A stretch of DNA of 41,505 nt from IMG/VR virus record IMGVR_UViG_3300025109_000019, positions 1 through 41,505 of that record; one strand, given 5' to 3'. The DNA comes from a virus. The stretch's first letter is position 1; every line of letters begins with the position of its first letter. Positions 2,680-22,431 of the stretch are shown in pieces. Position numbers and translations under genes: made by a program. Under the pieces are notes generated by a model, which was not told the DNA's origin, did not search any database, and was given only the letters and a program-made list of their open reading frames with translations.

Positions 2680-2911
2680 CTATAGCCTCCTGTGTTTTCT
2701 TAATGCAGTCTGGGCAAAACAACCTTACGGTTTCTTGCTTAACCACGACTGACCATGATTGGATCATGGCCATATCTTTTTTGTCAAATGAATTCTGACA
2801 TGCATCGCAGCGTTCAGGTAGTTTGTTAAACTGGGAAATTTTTTCGGAAAGATTTTTTGAGACTTCCTTCCCCATCTTTTTTTCCATTGCACGCCTTTCT
2901 CTGCGATTCAT
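2633..2911 (-). CDS. Small zinc-ribbon-like protein
   Basis: A 92-residue protein with a basic N-terminus (RRERRAMEKKMGKE), then two cysteine pairs, CDAC at about 35-38 and CPDC at about 67-70, separated by a beta-rich stretch. This is the layout of a zinc ribbon. The acidic helical C-terminus overlaps the start of the thioredoxin-like gene in another frame. Its ATG overlaps the methylase stop by ATGA. I do not recognise the family. A DNA- or RNA-binding role is possible from the basic end and the zinc pairs, but nothing shows it directly. Confidence 0.75.
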   Translation of the reverse strand: MNRRERRAMEKKMGKEVSKNLSEKISQFNKLPERCDACQNSFDKKDMAMIQSWSVVVKQETVRLFCPDCIKKTQEAIDASPEIIERFAKQDS

Positions 2912-3381
2912 CTATTCATTGCTCCAAATATCTGTGATAAGTTTGAGCCATCAAACACCACAACCGCCGAAGGGAACGGGGCACTATTTTCGCTGTCGCC
3001 AAATTTTAAGCGTCCTCTAATAAAATATACTTCGTCAGCTTTCATAACATAATCATGCCAATATTTAGTATCGGGACGAGCTGGAATAAGCATCACAACC
3101 ATTGTGTTATCTTTGCGCGATTCTTCATATGCCTTTTTAATCCACTTATCAATTCCTCGGCCATAAGGAGGATTAACAAATACTTTAAAGCCTTCCCAGC
3201 TTTTAGAAAGCCCATCCTCAGCTTCTGTGAAAAAATTTGCACATTTTGTATTATCAATGGTTGCGCACGGGTCTAAGCTAAAGGGACCAAATCTCCAATT
3301 TAGTTTGTCAAAAAAATCTTGGGGGGTTGACCATTCACCGGTCTTAGATGAGAACATAACTACTTGTGTGTTTTTATTCAT
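2908..3381 (-). CDS. Phage Dam-type DNA N6-adenine methyltransferase
   Basis: A 157-residue protein matching the phage DNA N6-adenine methyltransferase family. It opens with the family's WSTPQDFFDKLN, followed by FSLDPCATIDNTKC. The catalytic N-P-P-Y sits at about 70-73 (VFVNPPYGRG), and RGRLKFG with APFPSAVVVF follows in the C-terminal half. It would transfer a methyl group from S-adenosylmethionine to adenine N6 in DNA. It begins 5 bases after the DUF262-like/HNH nuclease gene, so it could protect phage DNA from that nuclease or from host restriction. The target sequence cannot be read from the protein. Confidence 0.88.
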   Translation of the reverse strand: MNKNTQVVMFSSKTGEWSTPQDFFDKLNWRFGPFSLDPCATIDNTKCANFFTEAEDGLSKSWEGFKVFVNPPYGRGIDKWIKKAYEESRKDNTMVVMLIPARPDTKYWHDYVMKADEVYFIRGRLKFGDSENSAPFPSAVVVFDGSNLSQIFGAMNR

Positions 3382-5122: not shown

Positions 5123-5728
5123 TTATTCAAACTTAAAGCTAACCCTTGCTTCAATTTTAAGTTCTGGGATATGTCTATGCGTTGCTAGGTTGTGCTTCTC
5201 GGCCTCCTTAATATCCAGAAACCAATCAGCGTGACTTTTTTCATGGATTATATCAAGAAAATAATTTTTACACTGCCCACAATTTTTAGCCATCATTTGA
5301 TAAACCTTTTTATTGAGCCGCTCTGTTTCCGCGGCGGAGGCCTTTATTTCCTCAACCTTGCCCCAGTTCATAGAACTCACATCGTGAATCATCAGTGTAG
5401 CGTCTGGGTCCATATAGCGATGATTTTCTGCTCCAAAACTAAACAGAATGGCACCACAGGACATGGCTTTTCCCTGAACGATAGTGGCGACTGGAAGCTT
5501 AGAGTGCTTAATATCGGATATCATTGACATTAGGCTATATACTTGGCCACCATAACTATCGATAATCACGGGCACCACTGGCTGGCCTGTGTTTTGTGCT
5601 TTTCTCATGGCCGTAGAAAAATCTCTGGCGGATACCTCGTCGAACTTTCTCACACGAATTATAACTGGCAGATCGTCTACAAGTTTAGGCTCCTTTAGAA
5701 GCGGACTTAAGTATTTTATTACATTCAT
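5123..5728 (-). CDS. clpP: ClpP-like serine protease
   Basis: A 201-residue protein of the ClpP/crotonase fold. The catalytic triad can be placed: Ser90 in GKAMSCGA (ClpP pattern GQAASMGA), His115 in TLMIHD, and Asp168 in SHADWFLDIKEAEKHNLA (ClpP pattern DRFLSAEEA). Strand VPVIIDSYGG matches the ClpP INSPGG region with Ser-Tyr in place of Ser-Pro. Length fits ClpP. It could form a peptidase barrel with host Clp ATPases, or process phage proteins; T4-like phages normally use a different prohead protease, so a capsid role is possible but unproven. Expression seems to come from read-through, since the promoter lies after it. Confidence 0.85.
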   Translation of the reverse strand: MNVIKYLSPLLKEPKLVDDLPVIIRVRKFDEVSARDFSTAMRKAQNTGQPVVPVIIDSYGGQVYSLMSMISDIKHSKLPVATIVQGKAMSCGAILFSFGAENHRYMDPDATLMIHDVSSMNWGKVEEIKASAAETERLNKKVYQMMAKNCGQCKNYFLDIIHEKSHADWFLDIKEAEKHNLATHRHIPELKIEARVSFKFE

Positions 5729-6186: not shown

Positions 6187-9100
6187 TTATCCTAACTGTT
6201 TGAATGTTTTACCAATAGCATATGTGCTAAATCCCCAGTTCGGGTCATATTTTAACGAGGCCATGTACGGCCTGTTAAGGCGGATTCGATCTTTGTGTGG
6301 TTTTACTCCCCAGCACCTAATGCGAGTTAGTTCGTTATTTGAATCGATCACTTCGACGATCCAGTAATCCTTGCCGTTTTTAGTCTTCTTTGGGATTATC
6401 TTACGCGGAATAAACCAACAAATCTGTAGTTCTTGATCGAACTCGGAGATGGGAGGAATATATTTTTCTTGGAGCTTTTGAACCATTTCCGCATCCACCA
6501 CCAAGTTGAGGGGAAACACTCCAGTAAGGTCGGTCTTAAACTGTATAATCTCTTCTTCCGTAAAGTCCCCCTCGGGTCCATATAGCTCTAGGTTCTCCAT
6601 GAACTTCTTCATACTCTTTGGGCGGTCAACCACGCAGGTTGACCAAAAGTGCTTGCGGCCCGTAAACCTATCATCTACGATATTATCCAGCGCTCCGCCG
6701 CGACAAAGGGCGTCTAGAGCCTTTTTATTTAATTTGCTATATGATACCCCCTCTCGGAATAAAAGGTCCTCAGCGTTCATAAACGGGCGATTCTCCAGGA
6801 CTTGTTCAATTGCAGCCATTCCAAGGCCCTTGATCGAAGTTAGTGGTTGAATGAGGGTTTTACCATTATCACTAATCTCCCATACGGTGCCAGACTTATT
6901 CACATCTAGGGGCGCAATCTCAAATCCAAACTTCTTTGCAATGTTGATCGCCCTCTCCTTGCGACTCTCGGGCTCCTTGTCAAGAAATGCTGCCATCCAC
7001 TCGACTGGATAGTAATTCCACAACCATGCGCATTGAAACGAAATAATGCTGTATGATACGGCGTGTGATTTATTGAAGCCATAGCCGGAGAAGTATTCGA
7101 ACTTATCCCACAGTGCCTGTGCCTCATCTCTGCCAATACCATTGTCTCCGCAACCTGTGATAAACTTATCGTGCAACTTGCCCTTTACAGAGCTTTTGCC
7201 TGTTCCTTTCTTTGTCAATACTTTTCGAAGCATGTTGCCTTCATCGAGAGTCAGGCCACCGAGCTTGTGAGCCAGAAGCGCAATCTGCTCCTGAAAGATG
7301 AGGAACCCAAACGTTTCCTGCGTGATTTCCTGCGCGTCATCGTTCAAATATTTAATGTAATGCGGGTTCTCTTTTGCCTCTACGTATTCATCGTGCACAT
7401 TCGCAGCCAATGGCCCGGGCCGATAGATTGAGGTAATAGCAGACACGTCAATGATATTACGCGGCTTTGCTCGGACACAGAACTTCTGTGCACCCTGCTC
7501 TGTAAACTGGAATACTCCAGCCCACTTTCCAGTATGGAAAATGTTCTCATAAACCTCTTGATTGCTCATATCGATTACATCAGGATGCAGGTTTTTATTA
7601 TAATATTCTCTCACCTGTGAAAACGTTGGCTCCTCGATATCATGATGCCGTTTGAGGATGTGATAGATGGCCCCTTCCATCATCTTTAGAGTAGATAAGC
7701 CCAACAAGTCGAATTTAATGAAACCCATTGGTTCAAGGTGTCGAACGTTTTGACCCTCAGCCCATGGTGCCTGACGCACACCTCCAGAATTAATCAGGGG
7801 CATATTCTCGTTCAGGTTTTCGGCGATCACAACACCACCAGCATGCCGAGAGCATGAGCGTACCTGGCCCACCAAGCCCTCAACGTGAGTCTTGACTGCT
7901 GGGTGCCTATTCAGATACGCCTGCAGTGTCGGCGAAAATTCCATCACCTCTTCCCAAGTGGGAGCATAAACTCCAGCCTTGATGCCGTGCTTTCGCTTAG
8001 CTTCCGGGGTGGCTTCGCGGATCATAATAGAAGTAACGGTATTAACTTCCGTAAATTCAATATTGTATAGTTTTGATATATCCTTGATCAAAGACTTAAG
8101 CTGGAGTGTGTTCCAGTTGGAGATCGGGGCTACGCAATCTTCCCCCCACATGTCTACCAGTTTCTCTTTCAACGCCATGCTATCGGATACATCATAATCG
8201 ATATCCGGATAATCTGTAGCGTCTGAGCGTAAGAAGCGAGAGAACAGGAGCCCGTGCCTGATGGGATCAACCTGGGTAATGTTTAGCGCATATGCTACCA
8301 ACGAGCCGGCGGCGGAACCTCGGCCCGGGCCCGACAGCATTGTACTAGTGGCAACATCAACAATGGATTTCATAGTAAGGAAATACTTTGAAAAGCCGCG
8401 ATCATCGATCACGTTTAACTCACGCTTAAGGCGATCCGCATACTCCTTGTTCGTATGTAGGCCCTTGTTCTTTAGACCCTCTAGGGCAAAATTAACGAGT
8501 GCTTGGGTTGCCGTGTAACCTGCGGGCACTACAAATTCGGGAAGGCGCACTGTATTGTCGGGCAGGAACGATTCGATACGCTCGAAAGCGATGCGGTGTG
8601 TTTCCTCAATACTTTTCAAGACTACTGCATCGTCATACTCAAATCCCGCGGACTTAGAGTATTGCTTGTAGCTTTCCCAGATCTGATCACCGTTCTTTGG
8701 ATATAGCTCGTATCCAATTTCCTCAACGCCCGCAGGAAGTTGGGACTCTTCCTCAGCCCATGAGGGTCTGCCCTTCCCAAGCCAGCCTAGGCGCTTGTAA
8801 AGCTCTCTGTCTTTCCATGCGTCAGGATTAGGGTAGTGGCTATCAGCGGTGGTGACCAGCCTAACGCCAAACTCTTGTGCAACTTGAATGATATACTGAT
8901 TCAATTCGTGCTGCTCTTTAATGTTATTCCACTGAATCTCTGCATACCAGCGATCTCCGAAGATCTCTTGCATGCTCGTGGTTGTCTCGCGCATTGCCTT
9001 TAGAACGGCGTCAGGGCCCTCCTCGCGGTTTTCCCAGTAGTTACCCGCATATATTCCACCAAGGCAAGCAGAAGAGGCTATAACTCCCTCATTATACTTC

Positions 9101-9618
9101 TTCAAGAGAGCGTAGTCAATGCGAGGATATCGATAGAAATTCTCTGCCTTATAGGATTCAGATACAAGCTTAAATAGGTTGTTCAATCCAGTCTGATTCT
9201 GAGCCAACAGCACAAGGTGGCGCCGGCGCTTGAGAATCCCTTGAATCCTCTTGCTGTCTCCTTCGTCTTCGACGGTGGCGCCGGACTGCTCATCCTTTTT
9301 AATCGAGCGGACCTTCTTCTTGTCTTCCATCGCCTTATTGTAGGCTTCGTGCCATTCTGAAATAGACGGTGTGAAGTAAGCTTCGCATCCGAAGATCGGC
9401 TTAAACTCTTTGCCTGCTTCTTGCATCTTCTTCGCATGCAAAACCTGATAGGCTAAGCCGTTCATGTTGCCGTGGTCTGTTAGCGCTAGCGCATCACACC
9501 CGTTCTCGTACGCAAAATCCATGTGGGCTTGCGGGTACCCAATTGCATCAAAAATAGAACCTGCCACGCTATGCGCATGCAAGCCAACGAACTTGATCTT
9601 AGAATCCAATCGACTCAT
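6187..9618 (-). CDS. dnaE: DNA polymerase III alpha subunit (DnaE), replicative polymerase
   Basis: A 1143-residue family C polymerase, near the length of bacterial DnaE (about 1160). The PHP domain begins with LHAHS (13-17) and LTDHGN (about 46-51). The palm shows SGPGRGSAAGSL (429-440), the two metal-binding Asp in PDIDYD (471-476) and the third in FIKFDLLGL (D637). The fingers carry YRPGPL and GYGFNKSHAVSYS, and a helix-hairpin-helix-like stretch LTSIKGLGMAAIEQV follows. This is the likely main replicase. A sliding-clamp binding peptide near the C-terminus is not obvious. A sigma70-type promoter and AGGAGGG site lie immediately upstream, and the HNH gene follows after 4 bases. Confidence 0.97.
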   Translation of the reverse strand: MSRLDSKIKFVGLHAHSVAGSIFDAIGYPQAHMDFAYENGCDALALTDHGNMNGLAYQVLHAKKMQEAGKEFKPIFGCEAYFTPSISEWHEAYNKAMEDKKKVRSIKKDEQSGATVEDEGDSKRIQGILKRRRHLVLLAQNQTGLNNLFKLVSESYKAENFYRYPRIDYALLKKYNEGVIASSACLGGIYAGNYWENREEGPDAVLKAMRETTTSMQEIFGDRWYAEIQWNNIKEQHELNQYIIQVAQEFGVRLVTTADSHYPNPDAWKDRELYKRLGWLGKGRPSWAEEESQLPAGVEEIGYELYPKNGDQIWESYKQYSKSAGFEYDDAVVLKSIEETHRIAFERIESFLPDNTVRLPEFVVPAGYTATQALVNFALEGLKNKGLHTNKEYADRLKRELNVIDDRGFSKYFLTMKSIVDVATSTMLSGPGRGSAAGSLVAYALNITQVDPIRHGLLFSRFLRSDATDYPDIDYDVSDSMALKEKLVDMWGEDCVAPISNWNTLQLKSLIKDISKLYNIEFTEVNTVTSIMIREATPEAKRKHGIKAGVYAPTWEEVMEFSPTLQAYLNRHPAVKTHVEGLVGQVRSCSRHAGGVVIAENLNENMPLINSGGVRQAPWAEGQNVRHLEPMGFIKFDLLGLSTLKMMEGAIYHILKRHHDIEEPTFSQVREYYNKNLHPDVIDMSNQEVYENIFHTGKWAGVFQFTEQGAQKFCVRAKPRNIIDVSAITSIYRPGPLAANVHDEYVEAKENPHYIKYLNDDAQEITQETFGFLIFQEQIALLAHKLGGLTLDEGNMLRKVLTKKGTGKSSVKGKLHDKFITGCGDNGIGRDEAQALWDKFEYFSGYGFNKSHAVSYSIISFQCAWLWNYYPVEWMAAFLDKEPESRKERAINIAKKFGFEIAPLDVNKSGTVWEISDNGKTLIQPLTSIKGLGMAAIEQVLENRPFMNAEDLLFREGVSYSKLNKKALDALCRGGALDNIVDDRFTGRKHFWSTCVVDRPKSMKKFMENLELYGPEGDFTEEEIIQFKTDLTGVFPLNLVVDAEMVQKLQEKYIPPISEFDQELQICWFIPRKIIPKKTKNGKDYWIVEVIDSNNELTRIRCWGVKPHKDRIRLNRPYMASLKYDPNWGFSTYAIGKTFKQLG

Positions 9619-18254: not shown

Positions 18255-19382
18255 TTATTGAGGATCAGAGTAAAACTGATCAGCGCTTCCCTCTCTTTTA
18301 TCAAACTTTTGTACTACTTCCTCGTCCATCAACTGTATGACGTGGGAACGGAATTCCTCATCAGTTTGTACCAGTTGCGCCCATTTAGAAGGTTGAAACT
18401 TCTTCTCATATCCATCAGGCATTGTTAGCGTATACCAAGCGCCGGCACTCTTCATGTGATCAGAAGATTTGACTGCATCAAACCAAGACTCTTCGTCTCG
18501 AATCCCAATATCGTCAGTGCCCCATAGAATACGGAATGCGCAGGTTCTACCTTGCGTCCCAAAACGTGATTTCTCAAGCTTAACCTTAACCTCTGAGCCA
18601 ATGCGGAATCCTTTATCATCTTCGACAAAAGAAGCCTTCGCCTTTCGACCTGTCAACCAGATTCGCAGCGAATACGAATAATGCATTGCCTTGCCTCCGG
18701 GTGTCATATAGGGGGTGGTCATCGCAATAATGCGAGCGTTAGGGCCACTTGGAATGTTAGTCTTAAGCTGGTTGAGTACCACAAACGTTGCCTGCCTGTC
18801 GGCAATTGGAATGATCAGCTTCGACATACCCTTTGCAAGAATGCGCGCCTTTACCGCCATCGAAGATTGGGGATTAAAATCTCCCTCTACGTCTGACACA
18901 GAAGGCGTAAGAGCCAGAGAGTCCCAGATAAACACCAACTGTTCGTCAGTTGCGCCCAGCAACTCTTCTACTGTCTCTAATACAAACTCTACAGAAGATG
19001 CCTGAACGTACATTAAACGGCCTAGGTCGCATCCTGCTCGCTCCAAAAAGCTTGGGTCGATAGCAGACTCCGAATCGAAGTAAACAATCATCTTGCCCTG
19101 TTTCTGGGCGTTTGCGGCTATCTGTGCAGCCATGTAAGACTTACCTGTACTCTCTAGGCCCGCTAGCTCTGTAACCTTGCCAACGGGGATCCCAGCAACA
19201 TGGCCTTTGCAAATAATAGAATCAAGCCAGCGTGAGCCGGTGGGAATCCACTCCTTTACTTCTGTGGGGTTTTCACCCGTTAAATCATGCGCGACATTTC
19301 GGCCGGCCTTCTTGTTGACCAAGCTCATCAGATCCTGCATGGATACGCGACCCGCTTTTGATTCTTTAGCTTTTCTGGCCAT
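18255..19382 (-). CDS. uvsX: RecA/UvsX-like recombinase
   Basis: A 375-residue strand-exchange protein. Walker A is GLESTGKS (75-82), and the second RecA-type strand YFDSESAID follows with the family's acidic residue. VFIWDSLALTP is Walker B, and FVVLNQLKTNI ends in the L2-like region with TPGGKAMHYSYSLR, as in RecA (GGNALKFYASVR). The N-terminal 50 residues are basic. It should coat single-stranded DNA and drive recombination-dependent replication and repair. I start it at the ATG at 19382, which has AGGAGGAGG just upstream; a longer frame would run into the tRNA gene. Confidence 0.95.
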   Translation of the reverse strand: MARKAKESKAGRVSMQDLMSLVNKKAGRNVAHDLTGENPTEVKEWIPTGSRWLDSIICKGHVAGIPVGKVTELAGLESTGKSYMAAQIAANAQKQGKMIVYFDSESAIDPSFLERAGCDLGRLMYVQASSVEFVLETVEELLGATDEQLVFIWDSLALTPSVSDVEGDFNPQSSMAVKARILAKGMSKLIIPIADRQATFVVLNQLKTNIPSGPNARIIAMTTPYMTPGGKAMHYSYSLRIWLTGRKAKASFVEDDKGFRIGSEVKVKLEKSRFGTQGRTCAFRILWGTDDIGIRDEESWFDAVKSSDHMKSAGAWYTLTMPDGYEKKFQPSKWAQLVQTDEEFRSHVIQLMDEEVVQKFDKREGSADQFYSDPQ

Positions 19383-19409
19383 ATGGCCTCCTCCTGGGTA
19401 TAAATAAAA

Positions 19410-19486
19410 TGGACGCAGGGGGTGGATTTGAACCACCGACCTCCGGGTTATGAGGCCGACGAGCTACCAAACTGCTCTACCCTGAA
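19410..19486 (-). tRNA. tRNA-Met (CAT), initiator-type
   Basis: A 77-base tRNA with encoded CCA. The D stem is GAGC/GCTC, the anticodon loop CTCATAA gives CAT, and the T arm is GGTGG, TTCAAAT, CCACC. It aligns base for base in length with E. coli tRNA-fMet and shares its A11:U24 pair, TAGCTCGTCGG segment and weak acceptor end (1:72 is U-G, 2:71 is U-C). One anticodon-stem pair (31:39) is a C-C mismatch, so only two of the three initiator G-C pairs are present. It lies between the SSB gene and uvsX. Confidence 0.88.
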
Positions 19487-19544: not shown

Positions 19545-20318
19545 TTACTTGTTGGCAACCAACTCATCAAACGCTCGGTCCACGGCGCTAGTCTTGTCAG
19601 TATCTTTACTATATCGCGTGGTTTCAGACGAACGTGACTCGGCACTCAAATCGCCGGCTAGTTGCTCATCAAGGATAGCGTCGATCTCTTCGGGAGTTTT
19701 CCTCTCAAAGAGTCCATTAAAGTCGGGAATGCTATCAAGGAGGGCAGGGATAGCCTCTTCATCCTCCAATAATGGTGTAGTATTCCGACGCATTTTTAGG
19801 CTTGTCTGCGGGTAAGCGCCCGGGGCAGTGGGCTTCGTGTATGTTAGTGAAATATCGGTGCCTTCCATGGCATCGGTAATATCACCATAATCTGGGTCTA
19901 GAATATAGCCCAAAAGGTTTTCATAGGCTCGCTTTCCGTAGCCATAGATCTTGACACCCTCATCTTCGCGGCCGCGGACAACCACCGGCGAAAAGAAGCG
20001 TGCGCGCACAAACAATGACTTAGCCAGCTTCTTGCTTTCTTCGTCGTTACTTGCAACCCCTTCCTTCCACAGAGAAGAGGCAAATTCGCAAATTGGGCAG
20101 TCTTCTCCAAAGTTTCTCTTTGGACACAGGATACCTCCCTTATGTTCTCCAACATTGTAGTGGAAATACATTTCCTTTAGCGGATCGCCGTCGTTAGTGG
20201 GTACGATGCGAATTTCCGTATCCCCTTCCTCTGGTCTAAACCAGACGGACTTCTCCGAACCTCCCTCACCACGAAGAGTGGCAAGCTTTTTTCTCATTAG
20301 TTCCATGTTAATTGACAT
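19545..20318 (-). CDS. gp32-like single-stranded DNA-binding protein
   Basis: A 257-residue SSB of the T4 gp32 type. The N-terminus is basic and short, for cooperative binding. The core holds a zinc site with H53 (or H59), C65, C74 and C77 in the same order and near the same spacing as gp32 (H64, C77, C87, C90). SLTYTKP and aromatic residues follow for DNA contact. The C-terminus is acidic and then ends in DRAFDELVANK, a likely partner-binding tail. It protects replication intermediates and loads the recombinase. Two promoters and an inverted repeat lie upstream; AAGGAG precedes the ATG. Confidence 0.93.
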   Translation of the reverse strand: MSINMELMRKKLATLRGEGGSEKSVWFRPEEGDTEIRIVPTNDGDPLKEMYFHYNVGEHKGGILCPKRNFGEDCPICEFASSLWKEGVASNDEESKKLAKSLFVRARFFSPVVVRGREDEGVKIYGYGKRAYENLLGYILDPDYGDITDAMEGTDISLTYTKPTAPGAYPQTSLKMRRNTTPLLEDEEAIPALLDSIPDFNGLFERKTPEEIDAILDEQLAGDLSAESRSSETTRYSKDTDKTSAVDRAFDELVANK

Positions 20319-20373: not shown

Positions 20374-20402
20374 AATGTAACACTCTCAACTTATCTTGTC
20401 AA
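20374..20402 (-). promoter_or_regulatory. Sigma70-type promoter of the SSB gene, extended -10
   Basis: The minus strand has TTGACA (20397-20402), 17 bases, then TACATT (20374-20379) preceded by TGT. It overlaps the last codons of the tubulin-like gene. Confidence 0.78.
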
Positions 20403-21244
20403 GAGTTTTTTTGTTGTTGTGTAGCGTTAGTGTGGGCAACGCAAAACCCAAAATCTGAGAGGTGTGTTTCATATATTGCATACGAAATCTTGTGGTATGC
20501 ATTTCGTGGCTTTTCCTTAAGCATGTCTACAATACGTTTGTGCAACCCGACCTCATCTTCTAGTCTTTGTTCATTTATACATAAATAATAACACACATCT
20601 CGGGACATGTCAAGCTCAAAGAACCACTTTTCTTGAAGATTTTTTGGATCCAGCATCCCCAAAGAGCGTATGCGATTAATATCGGACGGCTTGGCAACTT
20701 GGCCAATTTCGGGATCCGTATGGTCAAAGAAATTTAAATAATGAACAGCAGAAAAAATGGCGTTATTTAGCGAATCATAGTAATTTTTAATTGAAATGTT
20801 CTGTATATTTTGTTCTATGCTTTCATTAGAGATTATCGTCACAGAATGCAGCAACCCTGAACGCGCATATTCCTGTAAGACCCCAAACACAAGATTTTCT
20901 AATAATTTTGGGACTCCAGTTAATAGCTCGATATCTGGTTTGATATAAAAGACATCTATCTTTTTATCTTTTATTTGTTCTAAAATGCCAAGAGAATAAT
21001 TCGAACTATAAGAAGACCCAACAATGAATATTTGAACATAATCATTTAAGTCCGAAAAAAACTTTTTTAAGTCGGGAATATTGTTCTCGTATTCTTCGGG
21101 TTTCTCAAAAACTTTAAGCTTATGCTTGTACTTTGTGTTGCGTTCAATTTTACTATTTAACAAATATACGTTATAGTTTTTTTGAGCTTTAAATTTTTCA
21201 GCAATTGCGGATGCGGCAGATCCAATGCCCACTACCGATATCAT
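20399..21244 (-). CDS. Divergent FtsZ/tubulin-superfamily-like protein
   Basis: A 281-residue protein whose layout follows FtsZ. Strand-helix MISVVGIGSAASAIAEKF fits the first FtsZ loop (usually GVGGGGxNAV), and VYLLNS fits the next strand. IFIVGSSYSSN stands at the place of the GGGTGTG signature, which is therefore degenerate. LLHSVTIISNESI fits the VDTLIVIPND strand, NAIFSAVHYLNFF the following helix, and AKPSDINRI the DFADVKTV segment. The last 70 residues fit an FtsZ C-terminal domain with two strands around helix LHKRIVDMLKEK. Loss of the Gly-rich loop argues against normal GTPase activity. It overlaps the polymerase gene by ATGA. Fold call is by eye; filament formation is unproven. Confidence 0.6.
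   Translation of the reverse strand: MISVVGIGSAASAIAEKFKAQKNYNVYLLNSKIERNTKYKHKLKVFEKPEEYENNIPDLKKFFSDLNDYVQIFIVGSSYSSNYSLGILEQIKDKKIDVFYIKPDIELLTGVPKLLENLVFGVLQEYARSGLLHSVTIISNESIEQNIQNISIKNYYDSLNNAIFSAVHYLNFFDHTDPEIGQVAKPSDINRIRSLGMLDPKNLQEKWFFELDMSRDVCYYLCINEQRLEDEVGLHKRIVDMLKEKPRNAYHKISYAIYETHLSDFGFCVAHTNATQQQKNS
20585..20613 (-). promoter_or_regulatory. Sigma70-type promoter inside the tubulin-like gene
   Basis: The minus strand has TTGACA (20608-20613), 17 bases, then TATTAT (20585-20590) preceded by TGT. It lies about 210 bases upstream of the main SSB promoter and points the same way, so the SSB gene may have tandem promoters. Confidence 0.6.
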
Positions 21245-22431
21245 AACCTTAAATCCTCCAAATCATAGTAATTTGTGCCGGCTTCCATATTAACCACAAA
21301 TTTATCAAGAATATTGTTTGAAAATATTTCTTTTATTTCCGGTACTAAGTCTTTTTCATCATTACTCAGATCTATTACTATCTCGTCATGCACAATGTGT
21401 GAAACAAAAGATTTCTTGTCTTCCAAGAATCGATCAATTTCAATCGCCCTAGACATTACCAAGTCTGCGGTGGTGCTTTGTATAATATAATTAAAGGCGC
21501 GCCTTTCATCAACTTTTATCTTGCGGCCGGCTATAGTCTGAACATAACCTCCTTCGTAATATTCTTTTACAACATCCTCGCGATTGTAGTATTTTGAGTC
21601 TAAGTCTTTTGAATCGTGATTATAGAGCCACGAAAATAATAGAGTTTTTGCCTCAGATCTATCAAGAATCGCACGATTTTTGAAAATATTGTCGATGTTC
21701 CACATGTGAATATCATATTGTGGCTGATTTTTGCCGGATAAGGCTAAAAATGTTCGAATTTCTGCTCCATTATAATCTAAAGATAAGAACCAATCATTGC
21801 GCGGTTTTATTAATTTTCTCAGTTGCCTGTTCATTGTTAAGATAGGAAATGAGCCCGGGGCCGTTGCCAAGCGTCCCGTGACAGTCCCAAATAGATTATA
21901 GTCTATATACGGGCTTCCTTTTAGAATTTTATTAGCGGCGCCTCGGTGAACAGATGAGACAAACAATTTTCTACATCCTTCATTGCTAATGTTTAATTTT
22001 TGATGGCGTATTTTATGCACCAATTTCTGAGCTTTATCTAGATGATCATAATTTCCTGGTTTTTCGAAATTCTCAAAAACATGCTTCGTTATTTGATTTT
22101 TTACTTCTAAAAATTCTAACAAAAAATCATGTGGTACCAAGTCAAAGAAACAATGATCACGAAAATCAATTTTTGCTAATTCAAATGATTTTTTATACGC
22201 CGACATCTTTGACTGCAATCGACGCAGCGTTGGCTGCAGTGTGGGAGGGCAGCCTTTCTCTATGGGGCCGCCACCACAATAAAGCCACGCATACTCTATT
22301 GCCTCGTCTACCAAGGAACCTGAATATTTCCACGTTCTAAGGAGGCTTTCTGGCATTTCATCAAAATGCAACTGGCCGTCAGCATAAACACCAATACATT
22401 CATTTTTATCGTCGATTGCTTGAAAATACAT
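21241..22431 (-). CDS. Minimal family A DNA polymerase
   Basis: A 396-residue family A polymerase consisting almost only of palm and fingers. FGTVTGRL (T-G-R-L) is followed by motif A DYNGAEIR (D219, E224, R226). Motif B is RSEAKTLLFSWLYN (R258, K262, F266, Y270), QSTTADL follows, and motif C is HDE (348-350), so all catalytic residues are present. There is no proofreading exonuclease or 5' nuclease domain; the first 95 residues match neither. Pol I has 928 residues and T7 polymerase 704. With DnaE as likely replicase, this may serve repair, primer gap filling or translesion synthesis. No strong ribosome site precedes the ATG. It follows the virion operon by 8 bases. Confidence 0.88.
   Translation of the reverse strand: MYFQAIDDKNECIGVYADGQLHFDEMPESLLRTWKYSGSLVDEAIEYAWLYCGGGPIEKGCPPTLQPTLRRLQSKMSAYKKSFELAKIDFRDHCFFDLVPHDFLLEFLEVKNQITKHVFENFEKPGNYDHLDKAQKLVHKIRHQKLNISNEGCRKLFVSSVHRGAANKILKGSPYIDYNLFGTVTGRLATAPGSFPILTMNRQLRKLIKPRNDWFLSLDYNGAEIRTFLALSGKNQPQYDIHMWNIDNIFKNRAILDRSEAKTLLFSWLYNHDSKDLDSKYYNREDVVKEYYEGGYVQTIAGRKIKVDERRAFNYIIQSTTADLVMSRAIEIDRFLEDKKSFVSHIVHDEIVIDLSNDEKDLVPEIKEIFSNNILDKFVVNMEAGTNYYDLEDLRL

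Follow-up and report, generated by a model that had tools for sequence, protein, structure and literature searches.

What might a tubulin-like protein do in a T4-like phage when its GTP signature looks altered and its gene directly follows that of a DNA polymerase? This question is raised by a stretch of 41,505 nt of viral DNA (IMG/VR record IMGVR_UViG_3300025109_000019, positions 1 to 41,505; in the following referred to as the window), in which an open reading frame on the minus strand occupies exactly positions 20399-21244 and encodes 281 amino acids. A preliminary description, made from the sequence alone, had read its product as an FtsZ/tubulin-like protein with a degraded GTP signature, likely unable to hydrolyze the nucleotide, and had singled out the segments GIGS, VGSSYSSN, SNES and DINRI, all of which we find in place (residues 6-9, 75-82, 139-142 and 188-192, respectively). 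We refer to this protein as FTZ.

FTZ is a conserved viral protein

Relatives of FTZ are encoded by at least 591 IMG/VR stretches and are frequent among marine viral contigs (one search gave 52 loci). Judged from the median dN/dS of ~0.15, FTZ is under purifying selection, and this value together with the large number of related stretches argues that the gene is not a chance open reading frame. A cellular origin was rejected, since no relative was found among 84,980 bacterial and archaeal genomes. A tail such as TLDKLEQE or TLDMLDQE ends 75 of 139 distinct FTZ members; the copy in the window has no such tail (region 20399-20425).

The predicted fold of FTZ is that of tubulin and FtsZ

The AlphaFold2 model of FTZ, built from 33 aligned members (pLDDT 88, pTM 0.88), shows a tubulin/FtsZ fold across both domains: a strand-helix-strand unit is followed by alternating strands and helices, the long helix H7 and a C-terminal domain composed of strands and one helical pair. 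When this model was compared to the PDB with Foldseek, the top 50 matches were all FtsZ, TubZ or CetZ structures (best E-value 1.3e-12), with TM-scores by query of ~0.62-0.72 for most of them and alignments long enough to span both domains. Structure prediction followed by a Foldseek search was the check that the preliminary description had named beforehand, and it came out in favor of a tubulin-like protein; the FtsZ-like order of elements is likewise borne out by these matches and by the model with its H7 at residues 152-175. The best match by E-value was 4ei7, the TubZ of Bacillus cereus. TubZ, a partition tubulin of plasmids and phages, is an active GTPase that forms the treadmilling filament of a partition system, whereas FTZ is a shorter protein without the catalytic parts. 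In a library of viral structures, two of the first five matches (E 1.6e-12 to 1.6e-5) are annotated as FtsZ or cell division and one as PhuZ, that of Noxifer at rank 4 (E 2.3e-7); beyond these five (rank 6: E 4.6e-4) no tubulin annotation appears.

Sequence searches of Pfam, PHROG and the PDB (phmmer/hmmsearch) gave no link of FTZ to FtsZ. PF00091 had no match in the window at E <= 10 in the genome search and none in the 33 FTZ members with hmmscan, and no PHROG family matched FTZ at E <= 1, so that the PhuZ family PHROG 4733 was not matched either. A profile comparison with FtsZ had also been proposed: hhalign aligned FTZ colinearly with profiles of FtsZ, PhuZ and FtsZ-A (a second phage tubulin, described below), but below significance (P 0.08-0.2 in one comparison and ~0.05-0.13 in another, compared to 0.5-0.7 for the reversed control). 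For this reason it is the fold and not the sequence that carries the tubulin case, and we claim FTZ for the structural superfamily only. The few weak Pfam matches of FTZ are all to Rossmann families (GARS_N, the best, at E 8.8e-4, and F420_oxidored), as might be expected if FTZ were an ordinary Rossmann-type enzyme with an accidental likeness to tubulin. However, we saw no enzymatic catalytic motif in FTZ, and PDB matches that are tubulin-superfamily proteins throughout and span both domains largely refute this reading, which we regard as extremely improbable.

Lost and conserved motifs of FTZ

Motifs were counted in an alignment of the 139 distinct relatives. A T1-like loop at residues 6-18 (GIGSAASAIAEKF; 21191-21229, minus strand) holds G8 and F18 in 139/139 and G6 in 136/139 sequences. 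At the place of the T4 loop, GGGTGTG is replaced by residues 75-83 (VGSSYSSNY; 20996-21022, minus strand), and the T4 signature, searched as GGGTGTG or [SAG]GGTG[SAT]G, is absent in all 139 sequences, which confirms the earlier claim that the canonical phosphate loop is lost. The term 'degraded' holds for this loss but not in the sense of simple decay: the 139 sequences keep a distinct and steady G-x-S-x-[ST]-x-N loop at this place (V-G-S-S-Y-S-S-N and variants, with G76 in 139/139, S/T80 in 138/139 and N82 in 117/139), and guanine positions are retained. Residues 139-140 (SN; 20825-20830, minus strand) lie before helix H6, and N140, present in 139/139 sequences, pairs with the guanine-contact asparagine of FtsZ in hhalign, although not significantly. 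The central helix H7 (residues 152-175; 20720-20791, minus strand), a single helix of 24 residues in the model, carries an aromatic residue at position 156 (Y/F, 137/139) and N160 (139/139). By the order of elements and the non-significant hhalign pairing, N140, Y/F156 and N160 correspond to guanine contacts of FtsZ and tubulin; as these positions are kept, binding of a guanine nucleotide may persist.

The place of the FtsZ T7 loop and helix H8 is taken by 16 residues of coil (residues 176-191; 20672-20719, minus strand), and the model has no helix between H7 and the strand E192-198. Since just these 16 coil residues follow H7, FTZ appears to have neither helix H8 nor the catalytic T7 loop; the T7 motif NxDxx[DE] (NxDxxD) was not found in segment 176-191. 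That FTZ is likely non-hydrolyzing is thus supported by the lost phosphate loop and, beyond what had been claimed before, by a model without H8 and T7. Taken together, the model, the Foldseek matches and the aligned relatives make it very probable that FTZ combines a tubulin/FtsZ-superfamily fold with the state of a pseudo-GTPase, and the pattern of conserved residues indicates that this pseudo-GTPase is maintained and not a decaying gene. PhuZ, TubZ and FtsZ are excluded as its family by the motifs tested.

The usual protofilament contact consists of T7, the base of H8 and S9, as described for the phiKZ tubulin (PMC3678025), and FTZ is without two of these three (T7 and the H8 base). It has nevertheless to be considered that FTZ still forms filaments of its own in a non-canonical way, which would agree with the tubulin fold and the conserved positions of the guanine pocket. 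With T7/H8 and the canonical T4 loop absent, we hold this to be quite improbable.

FTZ is paired with a small family-A DNA polymerase

The gene in front of FTZ (21241-22431, minus strand) encodes a family-A DNA polymerase of 396 aa without a 3'-5' exonuclease domain (PF00476, E 4.6e-18; Klenow-like fold), referred to here as the mini-polymerase. Its catalytic motifs are invariant among 21 members, and lengths range from 389 to 411 aa. Polymerase stop and FTZ start share the four bases ATGA (21241-21244, minus strand), and all full-length pairs listed share this junction. Starting from FTZ, the polymerase is present in 117/121 loci and always on the same strand; starting from the polymerase, FTZ follows at the exact ATGA junction in 68/68 loci with room downstream. 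The coupling to a DNA polymerase noted in the preliminary description therefore stands, and we consider it likely that both proteins form a functional unit. Residues 1-45 of the mini-polymerase are modeled with low confidence and are strongly conserved (Q4, D7, D8, K9, C12, G14, Y16, G19, F23, P27, T33, W34); this N-terminal segment is a candidate partner-binding tail.

Downstream of FTZ follow, in this order, genes for a gp32-like single-strand DNA-binding protein (19545-20318, minus strand; PF08804, E 8.7e-16), a UvsX/RecA-like recombinase (18255-19436, minus strand; PHROG 97, E 8.4e-60), a dCMP deaminase, a 5'-3' exonuclease and a DnaB-like helicase, and where gp32 is present it almost always lies 57-97 nt after FTZ. 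A tRNA-Met gene (19410-19486, minus strand) overlaps the start of the uvsX frame as called, and for this reason the true start is probably an internal ATG (MARKAKES). In addition, the phage encodes a complete DNA polymerase III alpha of the DnaE type, including a PHP domain (6187-9618, minus strand; PF07733, E 1.4e-51; PF02811, E 3.5e-29), which is 71-91% identical in 7/7 related contigs. This is the probable main replicase, so that the mini-polymerase probably does not have that role. FTZ and the mini-polymerase are the fast evolvers of the block, with median amino-acid distances of 0.38 and 0.44 compared to 0.22 for gp32 and 0.18 for uvsX. Coevolution of the two as read from distance matrices is weak and was set aside: the partial r is 0.37 for FTZ and polymerase versus 0.12 for FTZ and gp32, yet 0.59 for polymerase and gp32, and the sequences are related.

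The strict pairing also bears on the idea that FTZ is an inhibitor of the host FtsZ, which would copy the fold, cap host filaments and block division during infection. Division inhibitors are common in phages. Moreover, ARC3 of plant chloroplasts, a non-standard protein with an FtsZ-like domain that exists beside canonical FtsZ, regulates ring assembly through FtsZ2 (PMC4593956), although it is a plant chimera with other domains, does not come from a phage and has no link to a polymerase. For a host-takeover gene, however, such a pairing within a replication block is unusual, and the FTZ sequence has no close likeness to any cellular FtsZ, which leaves this idea improbable.

Elsewhere on the minus strand of the window, a frame at 1283-2308 reads like IMP dehydrogenase/GMP reductase, putatively an enzyme by which the phage takes over one step in supplying guanine nucleotides; further genes encode a ClpP-like protease (5123-5728), a Dam-type methylase (2908-3381) and a sigma-70 region 4 protein (714-959).

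Related phages carry a second, canonical tubulin

In a PF00091 search of seven long related contigs, five had one further gene that scored above the cut-off, while the other two end before that place. This gene, FtsZ-A (~378 aa; L232:5171-6304, plus strand; L234:4797-5933, plus strand; L235 6191-7231, minus strand), lies on the strand of FTZ at a distance of 39-45 kb. Its motifs T1 (GVGGGGNKM), T4 (AGGGGGTGSS) and T7-like (FDSKD) are conserved at 98-100% in 67 sequences, and it matches FtsZ in the PDB (E 8.9e-11); in single-protein hmmscan its PF00091 scores of 33.5 and 32.4 bits are borderline with respect to the cut-off of 33. FtsZ-A is 88-100% identical among the best 80 viral contigs and hardly known from cultured phages, where the closest sequence is the putative FtsZ-like gp138 of Bacillus phage G (24.6% over 51%, E 7e-4). 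The relation of gp138 is to FtsZ-A and not to FTZ; a stretch of phage G matches the FTZ profile weakly and in part (76 residues, E 0.002).

Both tubulins are present in 12/12 contigs that span the two places (two of these, G002 and G003, are near-identical), and in one of the 12, of 195 kb, the distance from FTZ to FtsZ-A fits only with a circular genome. In the reverse direction, every FtsZ-A contig reaching far enough proved to contain FTZ. The window stops short of the FtsZ-A place and a search for overlapping contigs gave only one of 5 kb, so we infer the presence of FtsZ-A in this particular phage from its relatives. FtsZ-A has an acidic N-terminal tail; in L232 and L234 a fused SbcD/SbcC-like protein (1055-1072 aa) shortly precedes it. 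Many proteins near FtsZ-A in L232, L234 and L235 open with a shared leader, ~MKITKxxLKQIIKEEL, which looks like a targeting or packaging tag. A weak hint at a host comes from L332 (PAAD01000063.1): this contig, assigned to the bin of a marine Flavobacteriaceae genome, holds a copy of FtsZ-A (96%).

By terminase, the nearest cultured relatives are Flavobacterium phage immuto (47%) and Microcystis phage Mel-JY01 (45%). Both share the polymerase-gp32-uvsX block with a polymerase of the same kind, and neither has FTZ or a PF00091 match. FTZ and FtsZ-A thus track together, being jointly present in all spanning contigs and jointly absent from these two phages. In the polymerases of immuto, Mel-JY01 and LR756508 (L329:1-1326, L328:1398-2624, L330:1420-2778) the catalytic HDE of motif C is replaced by YDA, and these enzymes may therefore be impaired, unlike those beside FTZ. 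Between polymerase and gp32 the same three sequences encode a protein of 129-151 aa with a conserved HRKK..NT.YTIN.LN stretch (L329:1346-1801, L328:2621-3064, L330:4285-4674), whose overlap with the polymerase stop in Mel-JY01 comprises the same four bases. Its strand-helix-strand-strand order resembles the C-terminal part of FTZ, but profile comparison gives no support for a cut-down FTZ. A 428-aa neighbor in Mel-JY01 was rejected as FTZ-like, as it matches other phage families.

These observations have to be weighed against the main rival explanation, in essence that of the preliminary description, according to which FTZ, with its tubulin fold, belongs solely to the mini-polymerase as a subunit for processivity, stability or primer handling and has no role in filaments, while FtsZ-A serves some other purpose. 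The invariant ATGA coupling and the order polymerase-FTZ-gp32-uvsX agree with it, the loss of T7/H8 would stop canonical polymerization of FTZ, and a polymerase reduced to 389-411 aa and devoid of an exonuclease domain could need a helper. What it leaves unexplained is the joint occurrence of the two tubulins and their joint absence from the nearest cultured relatives; in addition, immuto and Mel-JY01 manage with the same kind of polymerase and no FTZ. We regard a pure polymerase subunit as a serious possibility without being a probable one. Of the earlier phrase 'polymerase partner rather than a moving filament', the partnership is evident in the genes, while the contrast is weakened, as the canonical FtsZ-A of the same phages could make a filament.

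Discussion

Our own reading, offered tentatively and at somewhat less than an even chance, is that FTZ acts as a pseudo-GTPase adaptor that would link the mini-polymerase to a filament of FtsZ-A; the steps beyond the gene pairing are conjecture. We take a tie to such a filament, or its capping, as the simplest account of the two-tubulin pattern. As a replication adaptor, FTZ would bind GTP or GDP without hydrolysis, would dock on the mini-polymerase, perhaps via the N-terminal segment 1-45 of the latter, and would hold or cap the FtsZ-A filament via its remaining tubulin face. Phage replication sites would in this way be held on a phage-made cytoskeleton. Without T7/H8, FTZ would neither trigger hydrolysis in another subunit on that side nor be followed by one, and so would end or mark a filament and not extend it. 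Whether FTZ works together with FtsZ-A at all appears to us evenly balanced. It speaks against an adaptor that FTZ lies ~40 kb from FtsZ-A while it is glued to the polymerase. Median pairwise identity is ~93% for FtsZ-A versus 61% for FTZ, which argues against a tight one-to-one coevolution of both, and as the two have been seen together in a single phage lineage, they may simply be inherited together. A more far-reaching version seems rather unlikely: that the phages combine an active with a permanently inactive subunit, the latter fixed in the DNA-polymerase module and tying replication to the phage filament or capping it, as a division of labor that arose independently of alpha/beta-tubulin.

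Among known systems, PhuZ of the nucleus-forming jumbo phages (PHROG 4733) is likewise a phage-encoded tubulin-superfamily fold found by structure. PhuZ, however, is a filament-forming protein whose T4 motif is intact and which has T7/H8 (PMC10299810, PMC3678025), whereas FTZ lacks both, pairs with a polymerase and escapes PhuZ and FtsZ sequence searches; the PhuZ phages also stand outside this T4-like lineage. The FtsZ-like families of Makarova and Koonin are comparable as divergent FtsZ/tubulin members recognized by remote homology and gene context (PMC2875224), but they are cellular and not from phages, and their context is membrane remodeling, not a neighboring polymerase. In the open-access literature we found no phage with two tubulins or with an inactive tubulin, and a 2023 survey of FtsZ/tubulin evolution does not mention phages or viruses (PMC9871819).

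The phage tubulins known so far, PhuZ and TubZ, each consist of a single active GTPase by which DNA is moved or centered. Here, abundant uncultured marine T4-like phages have an apparently inactive tubulin fixed beside a DNA polymerase, plus a canonical tubulin. If the proposed link is true, this would be a direct case of a cytoskeletal protein connected to a replication enzyme, and FTZ would test what the tubulin fold can do after hydrolysis has been lost. The two-tubulin phages point to a cytoskeleton where none was known in such phages, and they suggest that the copying of viral DNA is tied to a cytoskeleton made by the virus itself.
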